A stretch of 64,000 nucleotides of DNA from Prevotella sp. GTDB lineage: Bacteria; Bacteroidota; Bacteroidia; Bacteroidales; Bacteroidaceae. Of this stretch, positions 3,376 to 52,934 are shown piece by piece (the first letter of the stretch is position 1; every line of letters begins with the position of its first letter). Made by a program: the position numbers and the translations under genes. The stretch covers positions 1-64,000 of the forward strand of contig JAFVGZ010000017.1 of assembly GCA_017478025.1 (NCBI GenBank), read 5' to 3'. The notes below the pieces were generated by a model that was not told where the DNA came from, ran no database searches, and saw nothing but the letters and a program-made list of their open reading frames with translations.

Positions 3376-4512
3376 CTACTGCTGCAATAGCCATTGTGCA
3401 AAGAATTGATCGTAAAGTGTGTAGGTACCTACGTCGTGAGTGACAAAGTCCTTTTCCAAGAGTCCTTTGACAGCTCCCTGCACCATACTGGCCGTGAGAT
3501 TATAGCGCTGCAGGAACGGACGGGAGGTCAGATTGGCAGCCTTGCCCTCCTTGCAGATGGCCATCAGAACTTCCTTCTGCTTTGACGGCAATTGGAAGAG
3601 TAGTGCTTTATAAGCAAAGCTCTGCTGATTTATAATCTGCTGAATGGCAGGTTCTATCATTTCCTCCGTGCATGATGCTCCCGACTCTGTTAATGTAAAC
3701 AATGCATTCAGAACTGACTGCATATACCAGGTGACTCCTTCATAGCGCTGATAGACAGCGATAATGGCGTCTCGAGTTATCTCTTTCCCGTATTCCCTGA
3801 ACAAGCCCTGCGCAAACTCTACATATTTTTCACAGTCAATAGGTTCGATAGACATCAGGCTCGTACTTTGATAGAATGGGCGAGACGGGGATACGAATAT
3901 CTCAGACATCATGTGACGTTGCGAACCTGAATAGATGAACCATGCATTCTTACATCTCTGAATCCTGGTACGGAGAACGGCTTCAACATTCTTGTCAGGA
4001 TAGTCGACAACAACTTGGAACTCATCGATAGCTACAATACACGGTTTGTCAGCCTGCTCCAAATATGTAAATATCTCATCCAGGGTAAACTCTGGCAATT
4101 TTATATCGCCCACACCCAATCCCCACTCCGGAATACCGTTAATGTCGAATGAGATATTGCCACGAAGTGAACCTATCGTGTTCAGAAACTTTTCCCAAGT
4201 CTTGCGACCTCTTGATTTCAGCACGCCAAGAACAGTCTTCCCCAGTTCATATACAAACTCTTGCAGGTTCTTAGTGGCGTAGATGTCCACTATGAACGTG
4301 TAATAATGGTCTTTGACTCCTTCTTGCTGAAAACAGTGATGTATCAGCCCTGTCTTCCCAAGGCGACGAGGCGATATGAGGGCAACGTTGTTACCATTGG
4401 TTACCATCCTTGTCAGTAACTCGGTTTCTTCCACACGGTCACAGAAATAGTGCGGAGAGAGGTATCCGTTGGTGATAAAAGGATTGCGTATCATCATAAC
4501 ATTCTCATTCAA
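3376..4512 (-). CDS. AAA-type P-loop ATPase (archaeal-ATPase-like family)
   Basis: This 378-residue cytoplasmic ATPase starts with the typical NPFITNGYLSPHYFCDR segment. It has a Walker A motif SPRRLGKT (residues 47-54), a Walker B CIVAIDEFQ (158-166) and a sensor-like YSGSQRHMM. The C-terminal 100 residues (PSKQKEVLMAICKEGKA onward) look like a winged helix. Bacteroidetes carry many such STAND-like ATPases, often as isolated genes near variable regions. Their roles are mostly unknown, and stress, toxin-antitoxin or mobile-element regulation has been suggested. No partner nuclease or toxin is visible beside it. A predicted promoter lies 20 bp upstream, so it is probably monocistronic. Confidence 0.8.
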   Translation of the reverse strand: MNENVMMIRNPFITNGYLSPHYFCDRVEETELLTRMVTNGNNVALISPRRLGKTGLIHHCFQQEGVKDHYYTFIVDIYATKNLQEFVYELGKTVLGVLKSRGRKTWEKFLNTIGSLRGNISFDINGIPEWGLGVGDIKLPEFTLDEIFTYLEQADKPCIVAIDEFQVVVDYPDKNVEAVLRTRIQRCKNAWFIYSGSQRHMMSEIFVSPSRPFYQSTSLMSIEPIDCEKYVEFAQGLFREYGKEITRDAIIAVYQRYEGVTWYMQSVLNALFTLTESGASCTEEMIEPAIQQIINQQSFAYKALLFQLPSKQKEVLMAICKEGKAANLTSRPFLQRYNLTASMVQGAVKGLLEKDFVTHDVGTYTLYDQFFAQWLLQQ

Positions 4513-4531
4513 AGTAATTCATAACTTTATG

Positions 4532-4539
4532 CAAAGATA
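4532..4539 (-). promoter_or_regulatory. Predicted -7 element TATCTTTG for the ATPase gene
   Basis: TATCTTTG on the minus strand lies about 20 bp upstream of the ATPase ATG at 4512, which implies a very short leader. Confidence 0.5.
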
Positions 4540-4682
4540 ATTATAATCTTATTATAAAGCACACATAACCCCGTTGTTTTAACTTTATTTATACTCCTCG
4601 CCTCATTCGTCGCTGCTGATTTATGCCCATTGGAACCGTTTCGCTGTCATCAAATCTCACATCTGCCCCCCCATTAATGTAG

Positions 4683-4709
4683 AAAAATAGCGCCTCTTGA
4701 GGGGCGCTA
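4683..4709 (-). terminator. Rho-independent terminator, minus strand
   Basis: In minus-strand RNA, TAGCGCCCC and GGCGCTA pair around a short loop and are followed by TTTTT. The nearest upstream minus-strand gene is the AraC regulator ending at 5189, with the broken gene fragment in between, so it may terminate either. Confidence 0.55.
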
Positions 4710-4866
4710 ATATGATTTCCATACAGAGAATGTTTGTTTTGTCCTATGGCGGCAACAAGGGTTGCAACGGCTGCAAAATGGCATTGCGGAGTGGAGGCAG
4801 GTCGTTCGTTTTGTGCAATGAGACGCGTAACATCATAGAGGGATTGCCCTGACATCATGAAGGCTG

Positions 4867-4995
4867 TCAATAGGTGTTGATGGCAGACCAGGTCATTGCC
4901 TCTGCCCTGACGTAGCCTATCTTCTTGCCCACACGGAGTTTGAACCACTGGCTGTAGAGGCCGTCGGCGCCTTTCATGTTATAGTAGCCAAGGCA
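4867..4995 (-). pseudogene. Broken copy of the 3' end of the gene at 11503-12825
   Basis: Minus-strand translation gives about 42 residues ending SQWFKLRVGKK..GYVRAEAMTWSAINTY and a TGA, almost identical to the C-terminus of the secreted protein at 11503-12825. DNA similarity runs over 139 bp (4857-4995 against 11493-11631) with about ten mismatches, mostly silent, and includes ten bases past the stop codon. On the 5' side similarity stops abruptly and in-frame stops follow, so this is a truncated paralogue and not a gene. The rest of 4513-5188 shows no coding sequence. Confidence 0.8.
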
Positions 4996-5188
4996 TCATC
5001 ATAACACCATGACCACTGACGAACTGCATGCCCCCCCCTGAAGGAGGGCTATCTGAAGACGATTGAAGACATGTCCGTCCGTCGTGCCTGAACACCTGAT
5101 GAGGTGGGTGATATGGACGCATTAGCGAGAACAAAACTTGGCAGACTTGATTTTGCCGAGCGTGAGTAGGCTCGAACGAAGTTCAAGG

Positions 5189-6043
5189 CTACGCATTAGT
5201 GGCTGAAAGCCGATACTGCTGCGGCGGCATCCCGACGTGCTGGCGGAACAGACGGTTGAAATAGGCCATATCCTCGTAGCCAAGTGAGAGGGCTATCTGC
5301 TTGACGGGCTGGATTGTTGTGACCAATAGCAGTTCGGCCCGTTCCATCTTTTTGCTGATGAGCCAGGCATTGGGGGTTTGGCCCGTCTCTTTCTTGAACA
5401 TGCGAATGAAATGGTCTTTCGACATACAGGCCACACTAGACAGTTGCTCCATACTGATGTGGCTGCTGATGTTCGACCTGGCGTAATCCATCGCCTGTGC
5501 TATCCGCTTGTCGCTGACCCTGTTCCTTGGCTTTGCCTGCCGCAGAAAGCGGGAAAGGAAGATGAGCAGGATGCCACGCGACTCCATTTTGTCGCAGAAG
5601 GGTAGCTGCCGGTTGCGCAGGATGTTATCCTTCAGGGTCGTGCGGTTGTCGTAGCTGGCAGGGTCTGACTGTGGCAGTCGCATCCAAGGGTTAGTCTCGC
5701 AGAGTCGCTGCATCAGGTGCTGGTCTATCTCACACCCGTTCACCTCGACGGGAAAATCCCAGTCCTCCAGCACTCTCTGTTCCTCATATATGTGTATGTA
5801 ATAGTGAGCGAAAAAGCCGTGACAGATGTCGTTATGAACGATATAGGGTGGAACCAGATAGAGGTGGTGGGGCCGAAGCGTGATGACACACGTGGGCAGC
5901 TTAATCTGTGCCGTACCTTCGGTCACATAGTAGAGCCGTGCAAAGGGACTTCGCACATTCTTCCAGTTCCAGTCGCCGTGATGACTGGCAAAGCCCACGT
6001 TGAGCATGAGTGGGCGCAGGTGATATAAGGATAGATTCTTCAT
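5189..6043 (-). CDS. AraC-family transcriptional regulator
   Basis: This 284-residue cytoplasmic regulator has an N-terminal cupin-like sensing domain (about residues 1-150, with RPHHLYLVPPYIVHND) and a C-terminal double helix-turn-helix of the AraC type (about 185-280: ISMEQLSSVACMSKDHFIRMFKKE, then QIALSLGYEDMAYFNRLFRQHVGMPPQQYR, each described here only as motif landmarks at those positions). I chose ATG 6043 because the predicted promoter at 6053-6060 would leave the longer upstream starts untranscribed. The gene is divergent from the glycoside hydrolase at 6229, with both promoters in one 190-bp space, so it probably controls that operon in response to a sugar. The ligand is unknown. Confidence 0.85.
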   Translation of the reverse strand: MKNLSLYHLRPLMLNVGFASHHGDWNWKNVRSPFARLYYVTEGTAQIKLPTCVITLRPHHLYLVPPYIVHNDICHGFFAHYYIHIYEEQRVLEDWDFPVEVNGCEIDQHLMQRLCETNPWMRLPQSDPASYDNRTTLKDNILRNRQLPFCDKMESRGILLIFLSRFLRQAKPRNRVSDKRIAQAMDYARSNISSHISMEQLSSVACMSKDHFIRMFKKETGQTPNAWLISKKMERAELLLVTTIQPVKQIALSLGYEDMAYFNRLFRQHVGMPPQQYRLSATNA

Positions 6044-6052
6044 AACTGGGTG

Positions 6053-6060
6053 CAAAGATA
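6053..6060 (-). promoter_or_regulatory. Predicted -7 element TATCTTTG for the AraC gene
   Basis: TATCTTTG on the minus strand, followed by GCACCCAGTT and the ATG at 6043. The spacing of about 10 bp implies an almost leaderless transcript and decides the start-codon choice. Confidence 0.55.
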
Positions 6061-6136
6061 CGAATAATTCTGGATTCATGTCGATAAAGTGAAATAGAAT
6101 CGCAATATTTTCTACTGAAATTATCGATATTATCAC

Positions 6137-6144
6137 TACCTTTG
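6137..6144 (+). promoter_or_regulatory. Predicted -7 element TACCTTTG for the glycoside hydrolase operon
   Basis: TACCTTTG on the plus strand lies 31 bp before ATG 6175 and 85 bp before ATG 6229. The space between it and the divergent AraC promoter is the likely regulator-binding region. Confidence 0.55.
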
Positions 6145-6228
6145 CACGCAAAATAATATTAAAACAACTGAAAGATGAAGAAACTACTGGTTATTGTGAA
6201 TGAAAAGTATCTAAAAGAATCAACAGCA

Positions 6229-9228
6229 ATGAGAAAACTGACCCTTTTTGTTTCAACAACCCTCATTGCTCTTTCTATGGGTGCACAGACACTCGTCAAG
6301 GGAGGACAGTTCAAAGATCGCATCCTTCCGATGCAAGGCTCTGTCACCAAGTCTGCCGGGCAGAACATCTGGGGCCAGGAAGGAGTGCAAGGCAGATTTC
6401 TTGACAATGGTGCAGAACCTGCCTCTACCACAGACGGCAAGCCAACATTGTCATACTGGGGAGGCAACATTGTGAAAGATGCAAACGGTACTTACCATAT
6501 GTATCTCGCCGGATGGGATGCCACCCAGAGAGCGCACAGTTACTGGCCAAATTCTGATGTCTATCATCTCACTTCCACTAATCCTTCCGGTCCTTTCAAC
6601 CTGACCTCTAACCATAATATTGGTACAGGTCATAACCCAACAGTCTTTCAGGCAGCTGACGGCACATACGTGCTTTACGTCCTAATAGGCAATACTGCTG
6701 CCTATCGATATAAGTCATCAACACTCGGCGACTCGTGGGGCGCAAAGGAACTGATGCCTACCAATCTACGAGACAGAGCCCTCTCAACCGGTACTGCCCA
6801 GTCATATTCAAACTGGACCTTCGCACAGCGCCCTGACGGTTCTGTTTACTGCATGGACCGTGGTGGTGCTATGTGGATAAGCGAGACGGGGCTTTCAGAT
6901 TTTGAAGAGGTCTGCGACAAGTCCGCATATCCAGGTGGTTACCAGCGTTACTTTGAGGATCCTGTAGTATGGAGAGATGAGTTCCAGTACCACATGATTG
7001 TGAACCACTGGAACAACAAAATAGCCTATTACAGTAGATCTAAGGATGGATTCCACTGGATTAGCGAGACCGGTACAGCTTATGACCCTACGGTTGCTAT
7101 GCACGCAGACGGCAAAAAGGAAACATGGGATAAGTTCGAACGTCCTCGTGTCTATCAGGATCAGTACGGACGTGCCACACATCTCAATATGGCTGTAATA
7201 GACTCAGACAAGGGACAAGACCTCGCCGGCGACATTCACAGTTCAAAGAATATCGTGATGCCTCTCAACCCTGGTATGAGAATGGAAGTACTGAATACCG
7301 AGAAGATTACCACTTCAACAACTTCTATACGCATTAAAATATATAAGGAGGAGGGTTTCACTCCTGCTACAGACCTGAATATCGGGACACTCCGTTTCGG
7401 TTCTCATGGCACAGTGAACACAGGCGGCGGTGCATCAGCCACCTCACACGAGACAGATGCCGACGGCAATCTCATTCTTACATTCAATGGTGCGTCATCA
7501 GGACTCACTGCTGATGAGTTTGCTCCAAAGATTATCGGTCAATACACAGACGGCAAAATGTGCTATGGCTATGCCCGCCTCTCATACATTGACTACGAAC
7601 CAGCTTATCTGTCACCAGTTCTCCCAACTATCAGCAACGAGAGCAAGACAACGGGTATAAAGGTTAAAAACTATGGACTGAAAACTTCGCGTGAAGGTGC
7701 TGTAATAAAGGTTATCTCAAACAATGGGGCAGTTATTGCTACAGGCACAGTACCTGCCACTGACAAATACGCCACCGTTGATGTCTCTCTTACAGCGACT
7801 TCGAAGATTCCCGCAGGCAGCACTGCGCTTAAGGTGACAGTCTGCGAGGACGGCGTTGTTACCGACACCCACATCCTTCAGCTCACCGATGCCGTAGCAG
7901 CACAACAGAAACTCCAGACGGTGGTATCAGAAGCCGAAGCTCTCCACGGCAATGCCACCTACAAGGAAGGCAAGGAAGAAATCCTATCGGCCATAACAGC
8001 GGCGAAGTCACACCTTAACAGTTTCTACATACCAGAACTGGCAAAGGCAGAAAGTACGCTTGCCAAAGCAGTCAATGCATTCAAGTTTTCCAATGCAACG
8101 AGCCATAATCCTGTAAGTATCACTATTGTGAATGCAGACATGAGCAGTCTTGAGGGGTGGGAGTTGCTCAATACGGAGAGTAAAGGCTTTCATGTCAACT
8201 CTTCCAATAATCATGACTACAACGCTCTCGGACGCAATCCTTTCATGGAGGCATATAATGGAGGTGGCATAACAAGTCCTAACTACGCACAGCAAACATT
8301 CAAGGACATGCCTGCTGGCAAATATGTATTCTCGGCTGATGTCATTGCACAGAGGGGTACCGGTGAATGCACAGGCATTGTTGTCTTTGCAAACAACGAG
8401 ACAGCAAATTGTTCTTCCACTCAGCAGAATCATTCAGAGAATTATTCTGTAGAACTGATCCTTACAGAGAAGGCAGACATAACCGTCGGTCTTAAGGTTC
8501 TCGCAGGAAGCAATGCTACATGGGTTGGTTTCGACAATGCACAGCTGAAATACTATGGAGATGGCAGTCACGATAATGATCCTGTTATCCACAATATATC
8601 ATGCAAGAATTACTATCTGAAGACAGCCAACTCTAATTCCGGTAATATCTATTGCTATGTAGATGCCAACGGAACCTTTGCACGCAAAACAACAAAGGAA
8701 GACACTGGCATTTTCACCATCATACGTGATGACGAGAACAATCGCAACTACATCTACAATCCTTCAAGCAAAACGTTTGTCGGCTTTGAATCGGAGTGGA
8801 AGGCATCCAGCACCATTGCTTTCATGATACCAGAGATAGCAAACAGTACAACGACTTCAAATGCATATACAATAAAAGGTGGTATGGGAGCAAGTACATA
8901 TCTTAATGCTAAAGGAGGAACAGCAACCCACACCGATTTCGCAGCTTACAATGGCACAGATGCAAACAGCCAGTGGAGTTTAGAAGAATGCACAAATCAG
9001 ACTTACACTTTCGACATAACAGATATTGCGACAGGCACAGACGAATTCCTTGCTACCGCGTCATTGATAGATGGTGCTACAATAATACAGAATACAACAT
9101 CCATTAAGAATATTGGTACAGAACAGGACAAGACAAGCAGTTGCATATTCTCCATTTCCGGTCATAGGCTTGCTGCTCTCCAAAAAGGAATCAACATTCT
9201 CAATCGAAGAAAGATCTTAGTTTACTAA
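6229..9228 (+). CDS. Large secreted glycoside hydrolase, 5-bladed propeller type, family uncertain
   Basis: This is an exported enzyme of about 999 residues. ATG 6229 starts a clean signal peptide (MRKLTLFVSTTLIALSMGAQ); an upstream in-frame ATG at 6175 is possible. Residues about 70-330 read like a GH43/GH117-type beta-propeller (SYWGGNIVKDANGTYHMY, GTGHNPTVFQ, FEDPVVWRDEFQYHM). Then come an Ig-like region, a FIVAR-like helical segment (KLQTVVSEAEALHG), a jelly-roll carbohydrate-binding-like domain (MSSLEGWELL to VGFDNAQLKYYG), a lectin-like region and a Prevotella tail (ISGHRLAALQKGINIL). The next gene follows after 4 bp, so they form one operon. The substrate is unknown; the neighbouring fucosidase/esterase suggests a branched, acylated glycan. 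Confidence 0.7.
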   Translation: MRKLTLFVSTTLIALSMGAQTLVKGGQFKDRILPMQGSVTKSAGQNIWGQEGVQGRFLDNGAEPASTTDGKPTLSYWGGNIVKDANGTYHMYLAGWDATQRAHSYWPNSDVYHLTSTNPSGPFNLTSNHNIGTGHNPTVFQAADGTYVLYVLIGNTAAYRYKSSTLGDSWGAKELMPTNLRDRALSTGTAQSYSNWTFAQRPDGSVYCMDRGGAMWISETGLSDFEEVCDKSAYPGGYQRYFEDPVVWRDEFQYHMIVNHWNNKIAYYSRSKDGFHWISETGTAYDPTVAMHADGKKETWDKFERPRVYQDQYGRATHLNMAVIDSDKGQDLAGDIHSSKNIVMPLNPGMRMEVLNTEKITTSTTSIRIKIYKEEGFTPATDLNIGTLRFGSHGTVNTGGGASATSHETDADGNLILTFNGASSGLTADEFAPKIIGQYTDGKMCYGYARLSYIDYEPAYLSPVLPTISNESKTTGIKVKNYGLKTSREGAVIKVISNNGAVIATGTVPATDKYATVDVSLTATSKIPAGSTALKVTVCEDGVVTDTHILQLTDAVAAQQKLQTVVSEAEALHGNATYKEGKEEILSAITAAKSHLNSFYIPELAKAESTLAKAVNAFKFSNATSHNPVSITIVNADMSSLEGWELLNTESKGFHVNSSNNHDYNALGRNPFMEAYNGGGITSPNYAQQTFKDMPAGKYVFSADVIAQRGTGECTGIVVFANNETANCSSTQQNHSENYSVELILTEKADITVGLKVLAGSNATWVGFDNAQLKYYGDGSHDNDPVIHNISCKNYYLKTANSNSGNIYCYVDANGTFARKTTKEDTGIFTIIRDDENNRNYIYNPSSKTFVGFESEWKASSTIAFMIPEIANSTTTSNAYTIKGGMGASTYLNAKGGTATHTDFAAYNGTDANSQWSLEECTNQTYTFDITDIATGTDEFLATASLIDGATIIQNTTSIKNIGTEQDKTSSCIFSISGHRLAALQKGINILNRRKILVY

Positions 9229-48662: not shown

Positions 48663-48750
48663 CGATTACCAACGCTTGGTAAACCGATTACCAAGGCTTG
48701 GTAACACGATTACCAACGCTTGGTAACTCAATTACCAAGGCTTGGTAACA
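48663..48750. repeat. 22-bp-period palindrome array B
   Basis: Four imperfect palindromes TTACCAASGCTTGGTAA start at 48665, 48687, 48709 and 48731, exactly 22 bp apart, with 5-nt spacers. The central bases alternate CG, GG, CG, GG, so a 44-bp higher period exists. A degenerate unit lies just before (about 48642-48663). The array lies between the convergent transporter and GH2-part genes, after the transporter terminator. Confidence 0.92.
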
Positions 48751-48782
48751 CTGATGGTAATGGCCTATTGCATGATGTTTTT

Positions 48783-50615
48783 TTACCTCTCCGTGGCCGA
48801 TGAGGTGCGGAGTGTCTTCTTGCCGTTGTGGATATACAGGCCCTGGCCGGGGGCTGATACGCGCTTGCCGTCAAGGGTGTAGTATCCGTCATCATCGTTG
48901 GTCACGCCCAGGCGATAGACCTTTGTGATTGAAGTCTCATGGCCGTCATCCTCAAACACCATCTTCAAGGCGTCGTATTCCATGCGCTCCGTCGGCACAT
49001 GCAGGTATGCCTGACCCTTTGGTATCGACTGGCTCGCAGCCGCCATGCGGTCAAACTGCTCCTGTTCGCCGTTGGTGATGAAGTTCATGTATATCAGATC
49101 GTTGCCCTCCTTATGGAACGGCTCGCTCCAATCGTTCCAGTATTTCCTTATGCCCTCATCGCGGCAGTACTCCATCATCCACATCGGCTTGGTCTGCGAC
49201 TTATTGATATAGAGCATCTCACCACCGTATTCAGCCTCTACCACGTCCTTCATGCCGCGTGAACCCATAGCCCTGCCGCCGTTGGGGTCATACTCGTTGC
49301 GTATGGCAAGCATCTCGTTCATGTGTGCCACGCTGATGTCGGCATTGCCACACTCATAGAAGATGATGCTGGGGTAGTTGCGCAGATAGATGATAGCATC
49401 GCGCATCAGCTCCTTACGGTCCGTCCATTGCTGACCTGTAGCATCGGCCTCGGCATCGCCGGCAGGCATGGCCTGTATCAGTCCCACACGGTCACAGGAC
49501 TGCACATCCTGTATCCACGGCGTCACATGCATCCATCTCACGAGGTTGCCGCCTGACTTTACCAGCAGGTCATTGCTATAGTCGCTGACCCATGCAGGCA
49601 CGCTCATACCCACTCCGGGCCACTCGTTGGTGGTGCGCTGGGCATATCCGTGTACCATCATGACGCGGTCGTTGAGGTAGAACATACCGTTCTTGAATTC
49701 AGTCTTGCGGAAACCCGTGGTGGTGACAACGGTGTCATTGGCAACGATGGTCTTGACATTATAGAGATATCCGTAGCCCCAAGACCAGAAATGCAGGCCG
49801 CTGACCTCCTTCTCAGCCTTCAGCACTGTACGCTTACCAGCAGGTAAAATCTGCCCCGAAACTCCGATGAAATGGGCGATTTCTGTGCCGTCAAGCTCGG
49901 TGATGATGACCTCCAGCGGCTCATCCTTTGCTGCTGCGCCGTCGTTCTGCACCTCGCTCTCCACGCAGATAGTGGCTTTGCGCGACGGAATGTCAAAGTC
50001 CTTGGCATAAACATACACGCCTGTGGTGCCGAGGTTGGAATAGAGCGGCAGCGTCTGGTGCACCTCCGGCAGTATGTGCAGCCATACATTCTTGTTCAGA
50101 CCGCCATAGTTGGAGTAGAAATTGCTGCTGTTCCACTGCAGCGTGGTATTGGTATTTCTCTTGCGATAAGACCAGGAGTTGTTGGTTTTCACCTCAACGA
50201 GATTCTCACCCGCCTTGAGCAGGCCGGTGATATCAAGTCCGAATGCCATGACACCGTTCTCGCTGTAGCCGGCAGTCTTGCCGTTCACCAACACGTCGGC
50301 AGCCAAGCGGCAGCCCTCAAACTCCAGGATTACGCGCTTACCCTGTGCCGACTCGGGCAGGGTGAACGTCTTGCGATACCATACTATACCGTCGCTCTGG
50401 TCGGTGATATAGACCTTGAAGGCCTCATCCTCGTTCCAGGCATGGGGCAAGGTGACACGCTCGGTACCGGTCTTCACGCCCGATGCCAGCTCAGAATAGT
50501 CTATCTCCCAATCGCTGTTGAAGTTATACACCTCGTGCGCCATTGCCGGGACTGACAGCAGGTGGCAGATGACAAACGAAAGGTTTATCAGAAGTATTCT
50601 ATATATCTTGTTCAT
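48783..50615 (-). CDS. N-terminal part of a GH2 glycosidase fused to the tail of another secreted protein
   Basis: This is a 610-residue exported protein (signal peptide residues 1-27). Residues 28-181 form the GH2 jelly-roll (LPHAWNEDEAF), 182-305 the Ig-like domain and 306-510 most of the TIM barrel. Glu421 (IIFYECGN) is the likely acid/base and Glu482 (WMMEYCRDEG) the likely nucleophile. The GH2 sequence stops in the barrel at residue 510 (EPFHKEGNDLIYM). Residues 511-610 match the second half of a Prevotella surface-protein domain (ASQSIPKGQAYLHVP, DGYYTLDGKRV, GLYIHNGKK). The missing barrel end and C-terminal domains are in the gene upstream (50652-52934). The reaction is probably beta-galactosidase- or glucuronidase-like. 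Confidence 0.88.
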   Translation of the reverse strand: MNKIYRILLINLSFVICHLLSVPAMAHEVYNFNSDWEIDYSELASGVKTGTERVTLPHAWNEDEAFKVYITDQSDGIVWYRKTFTLPESAQGKRVILEFEGCRLAADVLVNGKTAGYSENGVMAFGLDITGLLKAGENLVEVKTNNSWSYRKRNTNTTLQWNSSNFYSNYGGLNKNVWLHILPEVHQTLPLYSNLGTTGVYVYAKDFDIPSRKATICVESEVQNDGAAAKDEPLEVIITELDGTEIAHFIGVSGQILPAGKRTVLKAEKEVSGLHFWSWGYGYLYNVKTIVANDTVVTTTGFRKTEFKNGMFYLNDRVMMVHGYAQRTTNEWPGVGMSVPAWVSDYSNDLLVKSGGNLVRWMHVTPWIQDVQSCDRVGLIQAMPAGDAEADATGQQWTDRKELMRDAIIYLRNYPSIIFYECGNADISVAHMNEMLAIRNEYDPNGGRAMGSRGMKDVVEAEYGGEMLYINKSQTKPMWMMEYCRDEGIRKYWNDWSEPFHKEGNDLIYMNFITNGEQEQFDRMAAASQSIPKGQAYLHVPTERMEYDALKMVFEDDGHETSITKVYRLGVTNDDDGYYTLDGKRVSAPGQGLYIHNGKKTLRTSSATER

Positions 50616-50651
50616 AGTTCACTCGGAAAATTATTAGTTGTCTTTTATTCG

Positions 50652-52934
50652 TTATTCGTTTCCTGCATCTTTAAGGAATTCTATCTCGGCAATGTTCAGC
50701 ACGTAGCTGCTACCTGACACTGCTGCCGTTGAGCCGCTCAACTCCACGATATCCCCGAAGGCATCGCCCGTGGTGCTCTGGTTCAGCATCTTGACCGTAT
50801 AAGTCTCAGAGGCAGGTGCCTCGCTGAGCTTCATGCGCACATATCCGAGCGACTTTGGGGTCCAGCCGCGCCACACCTCAGTCTCGCCTGCATAGATGGC
50901 GAGAGGATAGCTCGTGGTGCGGAAGTTGGTGCCGCCCATCTTGCATGAAATCTCCTTCAGCTTCACCGGTTCGTTGAAAGTAAACTCTATCCACGAGGTG
51001 TTGAGCGTGTTGCCGCTTGACCATGAGGTGGTCTCTTTGTCATCGTAGCATGTCTTCGGGTCACCTCCGCTGCCCGCCTTGGCACTCTTCACTGGAACGC
51101 CTACGAGACTCTGCACGAATGAGGGCTCAGAAGGTGTCTCGCCGCGGTCCAGAACAGGTTTCAGACCGTCTGACGGCTTGAATGTTGACAGTCCGCCGAC
51201 AGTCTCGACGGGGATGGTGGTGAAGTCAATGCTTGCTGATCCCAGTCCCTCAGCGCTTGCCGTGAGCTTTACCTCACCTGCCTCAGGGAGCGAGCGCAGC
51301 ATGACACGGTTGATGCCGCACTCCACCGGCAGCGTGGTGGCACGGACATAGTTATCGTTGGTCCAGCGGTTGCCAATGGGCTTGGTAGAGCCATGAGCCA
51401 CGCCGCCGAGCCATTCTGCCGGTCCGTCAAGAGTGAAAGTCACATCGCGGTTGTCCAACGGGCAGCGACGGCCTTTGCTGTCCAATATCTCCACATCAAC
51501 CAGAACCAGATCGGCACCGTCGGCCTTCCAGCCCGTAGGATGCTTCATGGCAGTGAGAACCAGCTGAGCGGGCTCGCCTGTGGTCTCCAGAGAATAGCGT
51601 GACTGCTCGCTGTGCTGCTCGTCATAGCCGATAGCGGTGAGCGTACCTGCCACGTATGGCACATCGGTGAAGGTGTACAGGAAGTCACCTTCCTTGCTTG
51701 CAGGCTGCAGAATGTTGTCGCCCGGGAGCACCAACTCAACCGCAGGGCTGGTGGAGACCACGTAGATGCGAGGTATGGTCATGCCCTCATCATAGTTCCA
51801 GTGGCCGCAGATGTAGGTGTGGGGCTTCAGGTCATCAACCCATCCGTCCCACATTGCCTGGTGAGTATAGAACGCATCCTTAGGCAGACGCATGGGATCG
51901 ACAATGCCGCTGGTACGGAAATTCTCCACTCCGCGGCTGTGGGTCTGCGAGTCACTGAAGATAATCTTCACACCACCGGCATTCACACGAGTGCCCTGAC
52001 CGGGGCGCTCCTGCCAGTATTCCTGCCAGCGGCGAACCAGCTCGGCAGAGAAATTATCTCCGTTATGGTGGTAAGAGGCTGATCCATCCACTGCCTCCTC
52101 ACTCTTTGCCTTTCTCGCAGTCATGGCCGGATAGAGCATGTTATTGCCTATTTCACCGGCTGTTTTCATCACTGGCACGGTGTATGTCTGCCCCGCCTTG
52201 CCGCGCATCACTACGCCGGTCTGTCCCGGAACGGTCTCAATGCGCTTCATGTTCACCTTGTCGTCCTTGACAGACTCAGCGACGTATGCCCTGAGTTCTG
52301 ACTTGCTCAGGTCGAGATTGAGCGGTGAGGCAAAAGAGAAACAGTCAGCCGGAGCCATAATGCTATACTCTTTTACATCAGGCACGAAGCGTACTGCCAA
52401 CAGGCTATAGGCTCTGTCAGAGGTGAAGAAGTACACGCCTTCAGTGGTGGCCGTGTGCTTCAGCTCTTTAGGCGACGTAGAGGTAGGGAACTCCTGCACT
52501 GTCTCTCCGTTGAACTTCATGACCATTTTACGTCCATCGTAGTTGCTGGAGTTCTTCATTATGACATACAACGTACCGGGAACGGCCACGTGGATGGCAA
52601 AACAGTCATCGGTTGTTTTGCTTACCGTACTCTGCGAAGCCGTCATGCCCTTAGAGTCAAAGATATTTCCTGCTACGTTTGTTCCGATGCGCTGCACGCT
52701 CCACTTACTGCCGTCGCTGAAGGTTCCCTCGTATGAACCCGACTCAATGGTCAGAGTTCTGGCGCTGGAGGCTCGGAGGTAGAGGCCGTTAAAGGGGGTC
52801 AACGTCTGGAAGGTGCGGCCAGCATCAAACTGGTCGAAGCACCAAAAGGACGGTTCGCTGACCAGTACATCAGCCGCAAAGCTTGCCATCGCACACAGCG
52901 ACAGCAAGCAAGACACAATAAAATTTCTCTTCAT
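50652..52934 (-). CDS. Secreted protein N-terminus fused to the C-terminal part of a GH2 glycosidase
   Basis: This is a 760-residue exported protein (signal peptide residues 1-21). Residues 22-185 are a beta-rich binding-like domain. Residues about 190-290 match the first half of the surface domain whose second half ends the 610-residue protein (DCFSFASPLNLDLS, VPGQTGVVMRGKAGQTYTVP). From residue 291 it continues as GH2: RRWQEYWQERPG, GGVKIIFSDSQTHSRG, AFYTHQAMWDGWVD, then Ig-like (LVLVDVEILDSKGRRCPLD) and discoidin-like C-terminal domains. It has no catalytic Glu of its own. It lies 36 bp upstream of the N-terminal half and shares its promoter. Confidence 0.88.
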   Translation of the reverse strand: MKRNFIVSCLLSLCAMASFAADVLVSEPSFWCFDQFDAGRTFQTLTPFNGLYLRASSARTLTIESGSYEGTFSDGSKWSVQRIGTNVAGNIFDSKGMTASQSTVSKTTDDCFAIHVAVPGTLYVIMKNSSNYDGRKMVMKFNGETVQEFPTSTSPKELKHTATTEGVYFFTSDRAYSLLAVRFVPDVKEYSIMAPADCFSFASPLNLDLSKSELRAYVAESVKDDKVNMKRIETVPGQTGVVMRGKAGQTYTVPVMKTAGEIGNNMLYPAMTARKAKSEEAVDGSASYHHNGDNFSAELVRRWQEYWQERPGQGTRVNAGGVKIIFSDSQTHSRGVENFRTSGIVDPMRLPKDAFYTHQAMWDGWVDDLKPHTYICGHWNYDEGMTIPRIYVVSTSPAVELVLPGDNILQPASKEGDFLYTFTDVPYVAGTLTAIGYDEQHSEQSRYSLETTGEPAQLVLTAMKHPTGWKADGADLVLVDVEILDSKGRRCPLDNRDVTFTLDGPAEWLGGVAHGSTKPIGNRWTNDNYVRATTLPVECGINRVMLRSLPEAGEVKLTASAEGLGSASIDFTTIPVETVGGLSTFKPSDGLKPVLDRGETPSEPSFVQSLVGVPVKSAKAGSGGDPKTCYDDKETTSWSSGNTLNTSWIEFTFNEPVKLKEISCKMGGTNFRTTSYPLAIYAGETEVWRGWTPKSLGYVRMKLSEAPASETYTVKMLNQSTTGDAFGDIVELSGSTAAVSGSSYVLNIAEIEFLKDAGNE

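Follow-up and report, generated by a model that had tools for sequence, protein, structure and literature searches.

Adjacent Prevotella genes that share out the halves of a GH2 glycosidase and of a secreted protein, and the barrel-split enzyme that they may encode

The closest known case to the gene pair described in this paper is that of the LacL/LacM beta-galactosidases of lactobacilli, in which one enzyme of glycoside hydrolase family 2 (GH2) is made from two genes and the products are heterodimeric (PMC5145203, PMC3155831). LacL corresponds by homology to the N-terminal sandwich domains together with the TIM barrel, and LacM corresponds to a C-terminal domain (PMC5145203); the genes lacL and lacM overlap (PMC3155831). 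A barrel restored from separate pieces is on record as well: fragments 1-188 and 189-268 of E. coli TrpA regain activity on mixing (PMC7008512). Here we describe two neighboring genes, A and B, in a stretch of 64,000 nucleotides from Prevotella sp. (assembly GCA_017478025.1, contig JAFVGZ010000017.1, positions 1 to 64,000; hereafter the window), across which a GH2 enzyme is divided in a different manner.

Both reading frames are open, as the initial annotation of this DNA had reported. They lie on the minus strand, as do the parts of A and B given below: A comes first (760 residues, 50652..52934) and B second (610 residues, 48783..50615), and the gap between the stop of A and the start of B, read from the sequence and assigned to no strand, is 36 bp (50616..50651). 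A consists of the front of a second, secreted protein, which we call S (S_N, residues 1-283), fused to the back of a GH2 (G_C, residues ~284-760). Conversely, in B the GH2 front (G_N, residues 1-510 or 511) is followed by the back of S (S_C, residues 511-610). The annotation had proposed that A and B swap halves, and their homologues bear this out: among them the GH2 occurs intact and so does the S module, and A and B have each of the two divided between them.

Like LacLM, then, the pair is a GH2 divided over two genes. In LacLM, however, the barrel is whole in LacL. The cut between A and B appears to fall within the barrel; the GH2 back is encoded ahead of the GH2 front, and both come joined to half of a different protein. 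The likeness to TrpA is that of a barrel formed from an N-terminal and a C-terminal piece, but the TrpA pieces were products of laboratory proteolysis, whereas A and B are encoded naturally by two genes, and a portion of a second protein is attached to each. In circularly permuted genes the back half is encoded before the front half; A and B differ from these in that the halves are not one chain, and each is attached to a piece of the protein that they break up. It is unusual for a natural enzyme to be split within a TIM barrel, and we know of no natural case in which two different proteins have traded halves with both products kept. Among the titles listed, a literature search gave no report of two natural genes swapping halves in this way, which is weak evidence given that most subscription papers lie outside it.

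The identity of the GH2 halves is clear from domain content. The Pfam models PF02837, PF00703 and PF02836 (GH2 N-terminal, sandwich and barrel domains) match B within residues 53-445, and PF18565 (GH2_C5) and PF16355 (DUF4982) match A, all above their cut-offs; an F5/8 match on A is sub-threshold. For A and B alike the first match in the PDB is 6hpd, a GH2 beta-galactosidase of 990 residues: B 27-497 aligns to its residues 35-524, and A 296-597 to its residues 544-827. From the Pfam domains and these alignments together we conclude that A and B hold the two halves of one enzyme, with the gene order reversed. The domains by which the family is recognized (sugar-binding, sandwich and barrel) are all present across A and B, and neither chain has a complete barrel. 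Its first part occupies B 304-510 (49086..49706; assigned by Pfam, PDB match and alignment), which probably holds the first seven strands, and its end occupies A 284-381 (51792..52085), which probably holds alpha7, beta8 and alpha8; we number the strands from general knowledge of GH2 enzymes together with the sequence. The sugar-binding and sandwich domains assigned by Pfam lie in B 27-303 (49707..50537), and the C-terminal domains, that is, DUF4982, GH2_C5 and the F5/8-like domain below cut-off, in A 382-760 (50655..51791).

Intact relatives provide the standard against which the pair can be read. In a search of 100 genomes, the window's own included, with the GH2 part of A, 70 genomes gave some match at E 0.001, and 28 other genomes matched (A ~286-756) at E <1e-60, mostly in open frames of 950-1076 residues. 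A search of contigs with B gave loci of the best 80 of 584 relatives, and in 78 of these G_N precedes G_C, both on one strand (among these 78, L113 and L125 run past the end of their stretches, and L080 lacks part of the GH2 back). The two remaining loci of the best 80, L062 and L107, contain the same swapped pair as the window. Among 108 intact frames (a count that includes duplicates), 105 have exactly nine residues between the positions of B510 and A291, and 94 distinct intact relatives with both halves in one frame were aligned. These intact GH2s, from Prevotella and relatives, and 6hpd are homologous to the pair over both halves, but they are one chain, in the natural order, and lack the GLYI..GKK tail in which B ends.

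The second protein, S, is composed of a signal peptide (read by eye), a domain without a Pfam match and a C-terminal module. Its first domain, a putative secreted domain, occupies A 22-185 (52380..52871). The first part of the module, A 186-283 (52086..52379), is contiguous with S_C in intact proteins, and alignment places the second part, with its GLYIHNGKK-type C-terminal tail, at B 511-610 (48786..49085). S_N is followed by S_C within one frame in 22 frames, representing 12 distinct proteins; the window's own genome has two contiguous S modules, in open frames of 1334 residues (L158) and 908 residues (L159). A further 23 frames match S_N or S_C singly, some of them cut by the end of their stretch. 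The S alignment comprises the 12 contiguous proteins and two more, one of which runs off its contig. The half-and-half mapping to intact homologues that had been anticipated is therefore found for the GH2 and for the S module.

By alignment, the junction in A lies near residues 283/284, and that in B between 510 and 511. Both had been placed at AAC codons. The codon in B (49083-49085) is correctly placed, but the one in A (52062-52064) lies some seven codons inside the GH2 part: A residues ~284-290 (GSASYHH) align with the GH2 (PADAYNH in intact relatives), and S ends near residue 283 (~52086). Since A 284-290 belongs to the GH2, the three bases that had been described as shared at the junctions are probably not the recombination site and are no evidence of mechanism; a recombination scar of AAC microhomology is thus unsupported. 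When the pieces are rejoined, the GH2 loses about 0-2 residues and S about 0-1. Such a near-complete fit, with a loss of no more than about two residues, is what one reciprocal breakpoint would leave, and it makes two independent truncations unlikely.

The same arrangement, with A directly upstream of B on the same strand, is present in four species-level genomes: the window's own (G000), G210 (L107 and L155), G228 (L154) and G338 (L062 and L156). (L155 and L156 have exact sequence in common with L107 and L062, which come from the same genomes, and add no species.) The gap between the genes is 36 bp in the window, G210 and G228, and 1 or 7 bp in G338, depending on the choice of ATG. The B proteins of the other three genomes are 76-89% identical to that of the window. 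Among 398 same-genus genomes (own included), S_N, taken as A 1-290, matches nine at E 1e-10. Over this length the strong matches are G000 (100% identity), G210 (90%), G228 (83%) and G338 (62%), and the other five genomes are at 29-38%. A second draw of 397 same-genus genomes gave the same eight other genomes; the draws overlap. In 60 relatives S_N has a match at E 0.001 in 11, all weak except the window's own; in 399 family genomes there is nothing beyond the window itself; and in the relatives of G338 and of G228 (248 each, E 1e-20) there is only the centre genome and a 33% match in G161. Viral contigs searched with A gave no match. It had been allowed that the two architectures might prove to be ordinary independent families spread over many genomes. 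What we find is that they co-occur side by side, in four of the 398 same-genus genomes.

In trees of G_N and of G_C the four split sequences are monophyletic with support 1.0. Their sister group comprises 13 intact GH2s for G_N (support 0.90) and 25 for G_C (0.64), all of the 13 being among the 25. Synonymous divergence (dS) in the GH2 halves ranges from 0.38 to 1.7, which, together with the 76-89% identity of B, excludes a recent insertion. Thus, the rearrangement is old and common to four species-level Prevotella genomes.

Intact GH2 genes accompany the split pair in several of these genomes. The window's own has a paralogue in an open frame of 1065 residues (contig C20, 10811-13924; L157), with identities of 54% and 42%. 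G228 and G338 also have intact paralogues, in open frames of 1012 and 1033 residues respectively, and in G210 the next best match is at 31%.

To assess constraint, we computed the ratio of nonsynonymous to synonymous substitution rates (dN/dS) by the NG86 (Nei–Gojobori) method, pairwise among the four split genomes. The ratio is 0.058-0.098 for G_N and 0.065-0.122 for G_C (six pairs each), 0.078-0.144 for S_N (four of six pairs, two being saturated) and 0.199-0.287 for S_C (six pairs). All eight A and B frames are open, and all four pieces are under purifying selection. Of the 179 columns that are strictly invariant in the 94 intact GH2s, the four split sequences keep 176, 177, 177 and 176, although these columns are defined by the intact set itself, so that the count has no unbiased yardstick.

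Constraint is concentrated in the divided barrel. The most conserved segment of A is 291-381, in which 83 of 91 residues are identical in all four genomes (dN/dS 0.011-0.070); in the barrel part of B, 304-510, the corresponding figure is 174 of 207 (dN/dS 0.050-0.080). Expressed as the fraction of positions at which the four genomes agree, this is 0.91 in the barrel end on A and 0.84 in the barrel on B, against 0.70-0.73 in other GH2 segments, 0.51-0.56 in S on A and 0.43 in S on B. A 91-residue fragment of a barrel would seem to have no evident use apart from the rest of the barrel, and its standing as the best conserved segment of A is therefore our main argument that A and B pair.

The cut in the GH2 can be placed, by inference from the alignment, inside the TIM barrel, between the strand of the nucleophile (beta7) and the helix that precedes the last strand (alpha7-beta8). 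In all four splits the conserved strand that follows, GGVKIIFSD, belongs to A (residue 320). The annotation had assigned both catalytic Glu to B. B does carry two Glu, E421 (49353-49355) and E482 (49170-49172, in the motif MMEY), that are invariant in 94 of 94 intact and four of four split sequences when these are aligned. We take E482, by homology, to be the GH2 nucleophile after beta7. On the other hand, the splits have Ala at B425, where the classical GH2 motif has the 'NE' acid/base Glu after beta4. Glu is found there in just 47 of the 94 intact relatives, and E421, four residues before the NE position, is a candidate for the acid/base. Considered by itself, the intact set has no NE Glu in half of its sequences but an invariant Glu four positions before it, and assignment by motif may misidentify the catalytic residues in this group of GH2s.

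We consider it probable that A and B descend from one old reciprocal exchange between S and a GH2, and that pairing of the two chains rebuilds an enzyme whose barrel is split. In outline, an S gene and a GH2 gene would have traded back halves a single time, predating the separation of at least four Prevotella species, or the sharing of the locus among them, and the outcome would be the tight same-strand pair in which A is S-front plus GH2-back and B is GH2-front plus S-back. Neither chain alone would have a whole barrel. Both would be exported, and complementation of the barrel would join them; the S fragments would meet at the same point and rebuild the S module beside the enzyme. Export is suggested by putative signal peptides, read by eye, at residues 1-21 of A (...MASFA/A; 52872..52934) and 1-26 of B (...PAMA/H; 50538..50615). 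The earlier idea that the halves might assemble into an active split enzyme gains support from the homologues and from purifying selection on both GH2 halves. The two chains likely work as an exported heterodimer, whose substrate we guess, from 6hpd and the neighboring genes in G338, to be a glycan with galactose or uronate.

A more specific version of this proposal can be offered only tentatively, at somewhat less than even chances: that A and B form an obligate heterodimer that arose by a single-point exchange of chains between two unrelated secreted proteins, with the GH2 barrel and the S module both completed in trans, and with the tail and the N-terminal domain of S perhaps moving the enzyme to the cell surface, B carrying A. 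The tail itself is not a feature of GH2 enzymes: a simple GLYI..GKK pattern occurs in none of the 94 intact sequences, and a hidden Markov model (HMM) of the S module, run on the GH2 frames of the 78 unpermuted loci, gave no match at E up to 0.01. As a separate observation, genes of ~700-1500 residues that precede an intact GH2 frequently finish with the GLYI..GKK tail, the final 35-50 positions of the S module, and lack the remainder (L070, L094, L105, L110, L112, L119, L121, L127, L137 and others). The tail is thus a common ending in loci with an intact GH2. The translocon protein SprA (TIGR04189) of the type IX secretion system (T9SS) is found above cut-off in four of four split genomes and in none of 14 control genomes. 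No NCBIfam model of a T9SS sorting tail matches B at E up to 1, and with E raised to 10 none matches a further six proteins that have the S module; the HMMER filters drop most weak matches. Since SprA is present but the tail matches no known sorting model, delivery to the surface through a T9SS tail is a suggestion.

Several observations, besides the missing yardstick for the invariant columns, weigh against a working split enzyme. The match of A to 6hpd ends near A597. Relaxing invariance to cut-offs of 98% and 95% gives 219 and 289 columns, of which the splits keep 214-215 and 277-279; the intact sequences, which define the columns, keep 215-219 and 277-289, so that the splits fall at the bottom of that range or slightly under it. 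Two of the changes at invariant columns, G to D at B506 and N to H at A289, are common to all four splits, and both adjoin the cut; others are D to N at B145, in the window only, and E to Q at A538, in G338 only. S_C is the least constrained piece (0.20-0.29), and the rebuilding of S is therefore the weakest step. Finally, the stems of the split clade are long, 0.55 and 0.68 substitutions per site, and split G_N has evolved faster than its sisters (0.70-0.75 versus 0.23-0.57), so that function may have shifted in the split lineage. Split G_C is not faster than its sisters (0.85-0.90 versus 0.55-1.20).

A rival reading is that A and B are independent proteins with no enzyme left, in which only binding or scaffold functions are kept, the sandwich domains of B and the C-terminal domains of A binding glycan. 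Each half does retain whole non-catalytic domains, and the long stem and the absence of the classical NE Glu would fit as well. Against this, conservation is highest in the barrel pieces of both proteins (91% in A 291-381 and 84% in B 304-510, versus 70-73% in the other GH2 segments), E421 and E482 persist in four of four genomes, and the NE Glu is equally missing from 47 of 94 intact relatives. We regard independent binders as unlikely, though they are the alternative that fares best.

The looser constraint on S_C, and the rarity of the pair among same-genus genomes, might alternatively mark a decaying by-product, that is, a rearranged locus on its way to loss. Eight open frames, and dN/dS far below 1 in every segment and all computable pairs, make this very improbable, unless all four copies were recently transferred, against which the dS of the GH2 halves argues.

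Protein trans-splicing, in which the S pieces would be the halves of a split intein that ligates G_N to G_C, is more improbable still. The layout, G_N-X plus Y-G_C, does resemble a split intein. The final residues of inteins are often HN, with Ser, Thr or Cys following, and A reads HHN/S at the GH2 side in three of the four splits (HHN/G in the window). But the HN is native to the intact GH2 (YNHN), and the S pieces are one ordinary module, contiguous front-then-back in intact proteins. Moreover, S_C starts with NFIT, NYIT or NYLT, with no Cys or Ser, a putative signal peptide precedes the S part of A, and neither Pfam (E up to 0.01) nor NCBIfam (E up to 1) gives a match to an intein. Lastly, an assembly artefact or misjoined strain mixture, which the annotation had not favored and for which one could cite only that the four genomes are all drafts, 68-85% complete, has a negligible chance, because the rearrangement recurs in four species-level genomes with the same two junctions at the same residues, and the other B proteins are 76-89% identical to the window's.

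Returning to a reciprocal exchange between S and the GH2, one crossover between the two genes in the same orientation could make both junctions at once; it would leave A in place and a circle with B, and the circle would reinsert just downstream. A GH2 circle inserted into S would give the same product, and the two routes are indistinguishable. One locus is of interest with respect to the ancestor. In L080 an S-type gene (4027-5754) lies ~240 bp upstream of an unpermuted GH2 (5980-8616) on the same strand; its product matches the S-module HMM at E 6.6e-36, with 22.5% identity by BLAST. This protein has an insert of ~175 residues in the S module, and its neighboring GH2 lacks part of the barrel end and of the next domain. 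In L140 another S module is found ~2 kb upstream of an unpermuted GH2. L080 is compatible with an ancestor in which S and the GH2 were adjacent, but this is one (or two) of 78 unpermuted loci, S modules are not rare in the genomes concerned, and the proximity may be due to chance.

The relationships among the split genes also change along their length. The DNA identity of the window and G210 is 97% in A 601-700 and 80% in A 501-600, where G210 and G228 are at 93%. The changing closest partner suggests recombination between species inside the pair.

The surroundings of the pair differ among genomes. The window and G210 have flanks in common, with LacI and a major facilitator superfamily (MFS) transporter on one side and proteins of 158 and 446/445 residues on the other. 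G228, on a contig of 5.9 kb, shows a single neighbor, which differs from the window's. In G338 the flanks differ as well: the pair comes after genes for SusD, GH115 and an acetyl-xylan esterase, and GH88 and another GH2 are nearby. Just past gene B, at 48663-48751, the window contains four head-to-tail copies of a 22-bp unit with the palindrome TTACCAASGCTTGGTAA. None of the other three split loci has the exact unit, and within the set of loci compared it otherwise occurs only in L054, which is the window's own stretch.

If the proposed pairing is true, the two genes would supply a ready-made, obligate two-chain glycosidase, and they would illustrate how two genes that a rearrangement might be expected to destroy can come out of it as a dependent pair. 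With four natural versions at hand, the costs and benefits of splitting an enzyme would become testable.

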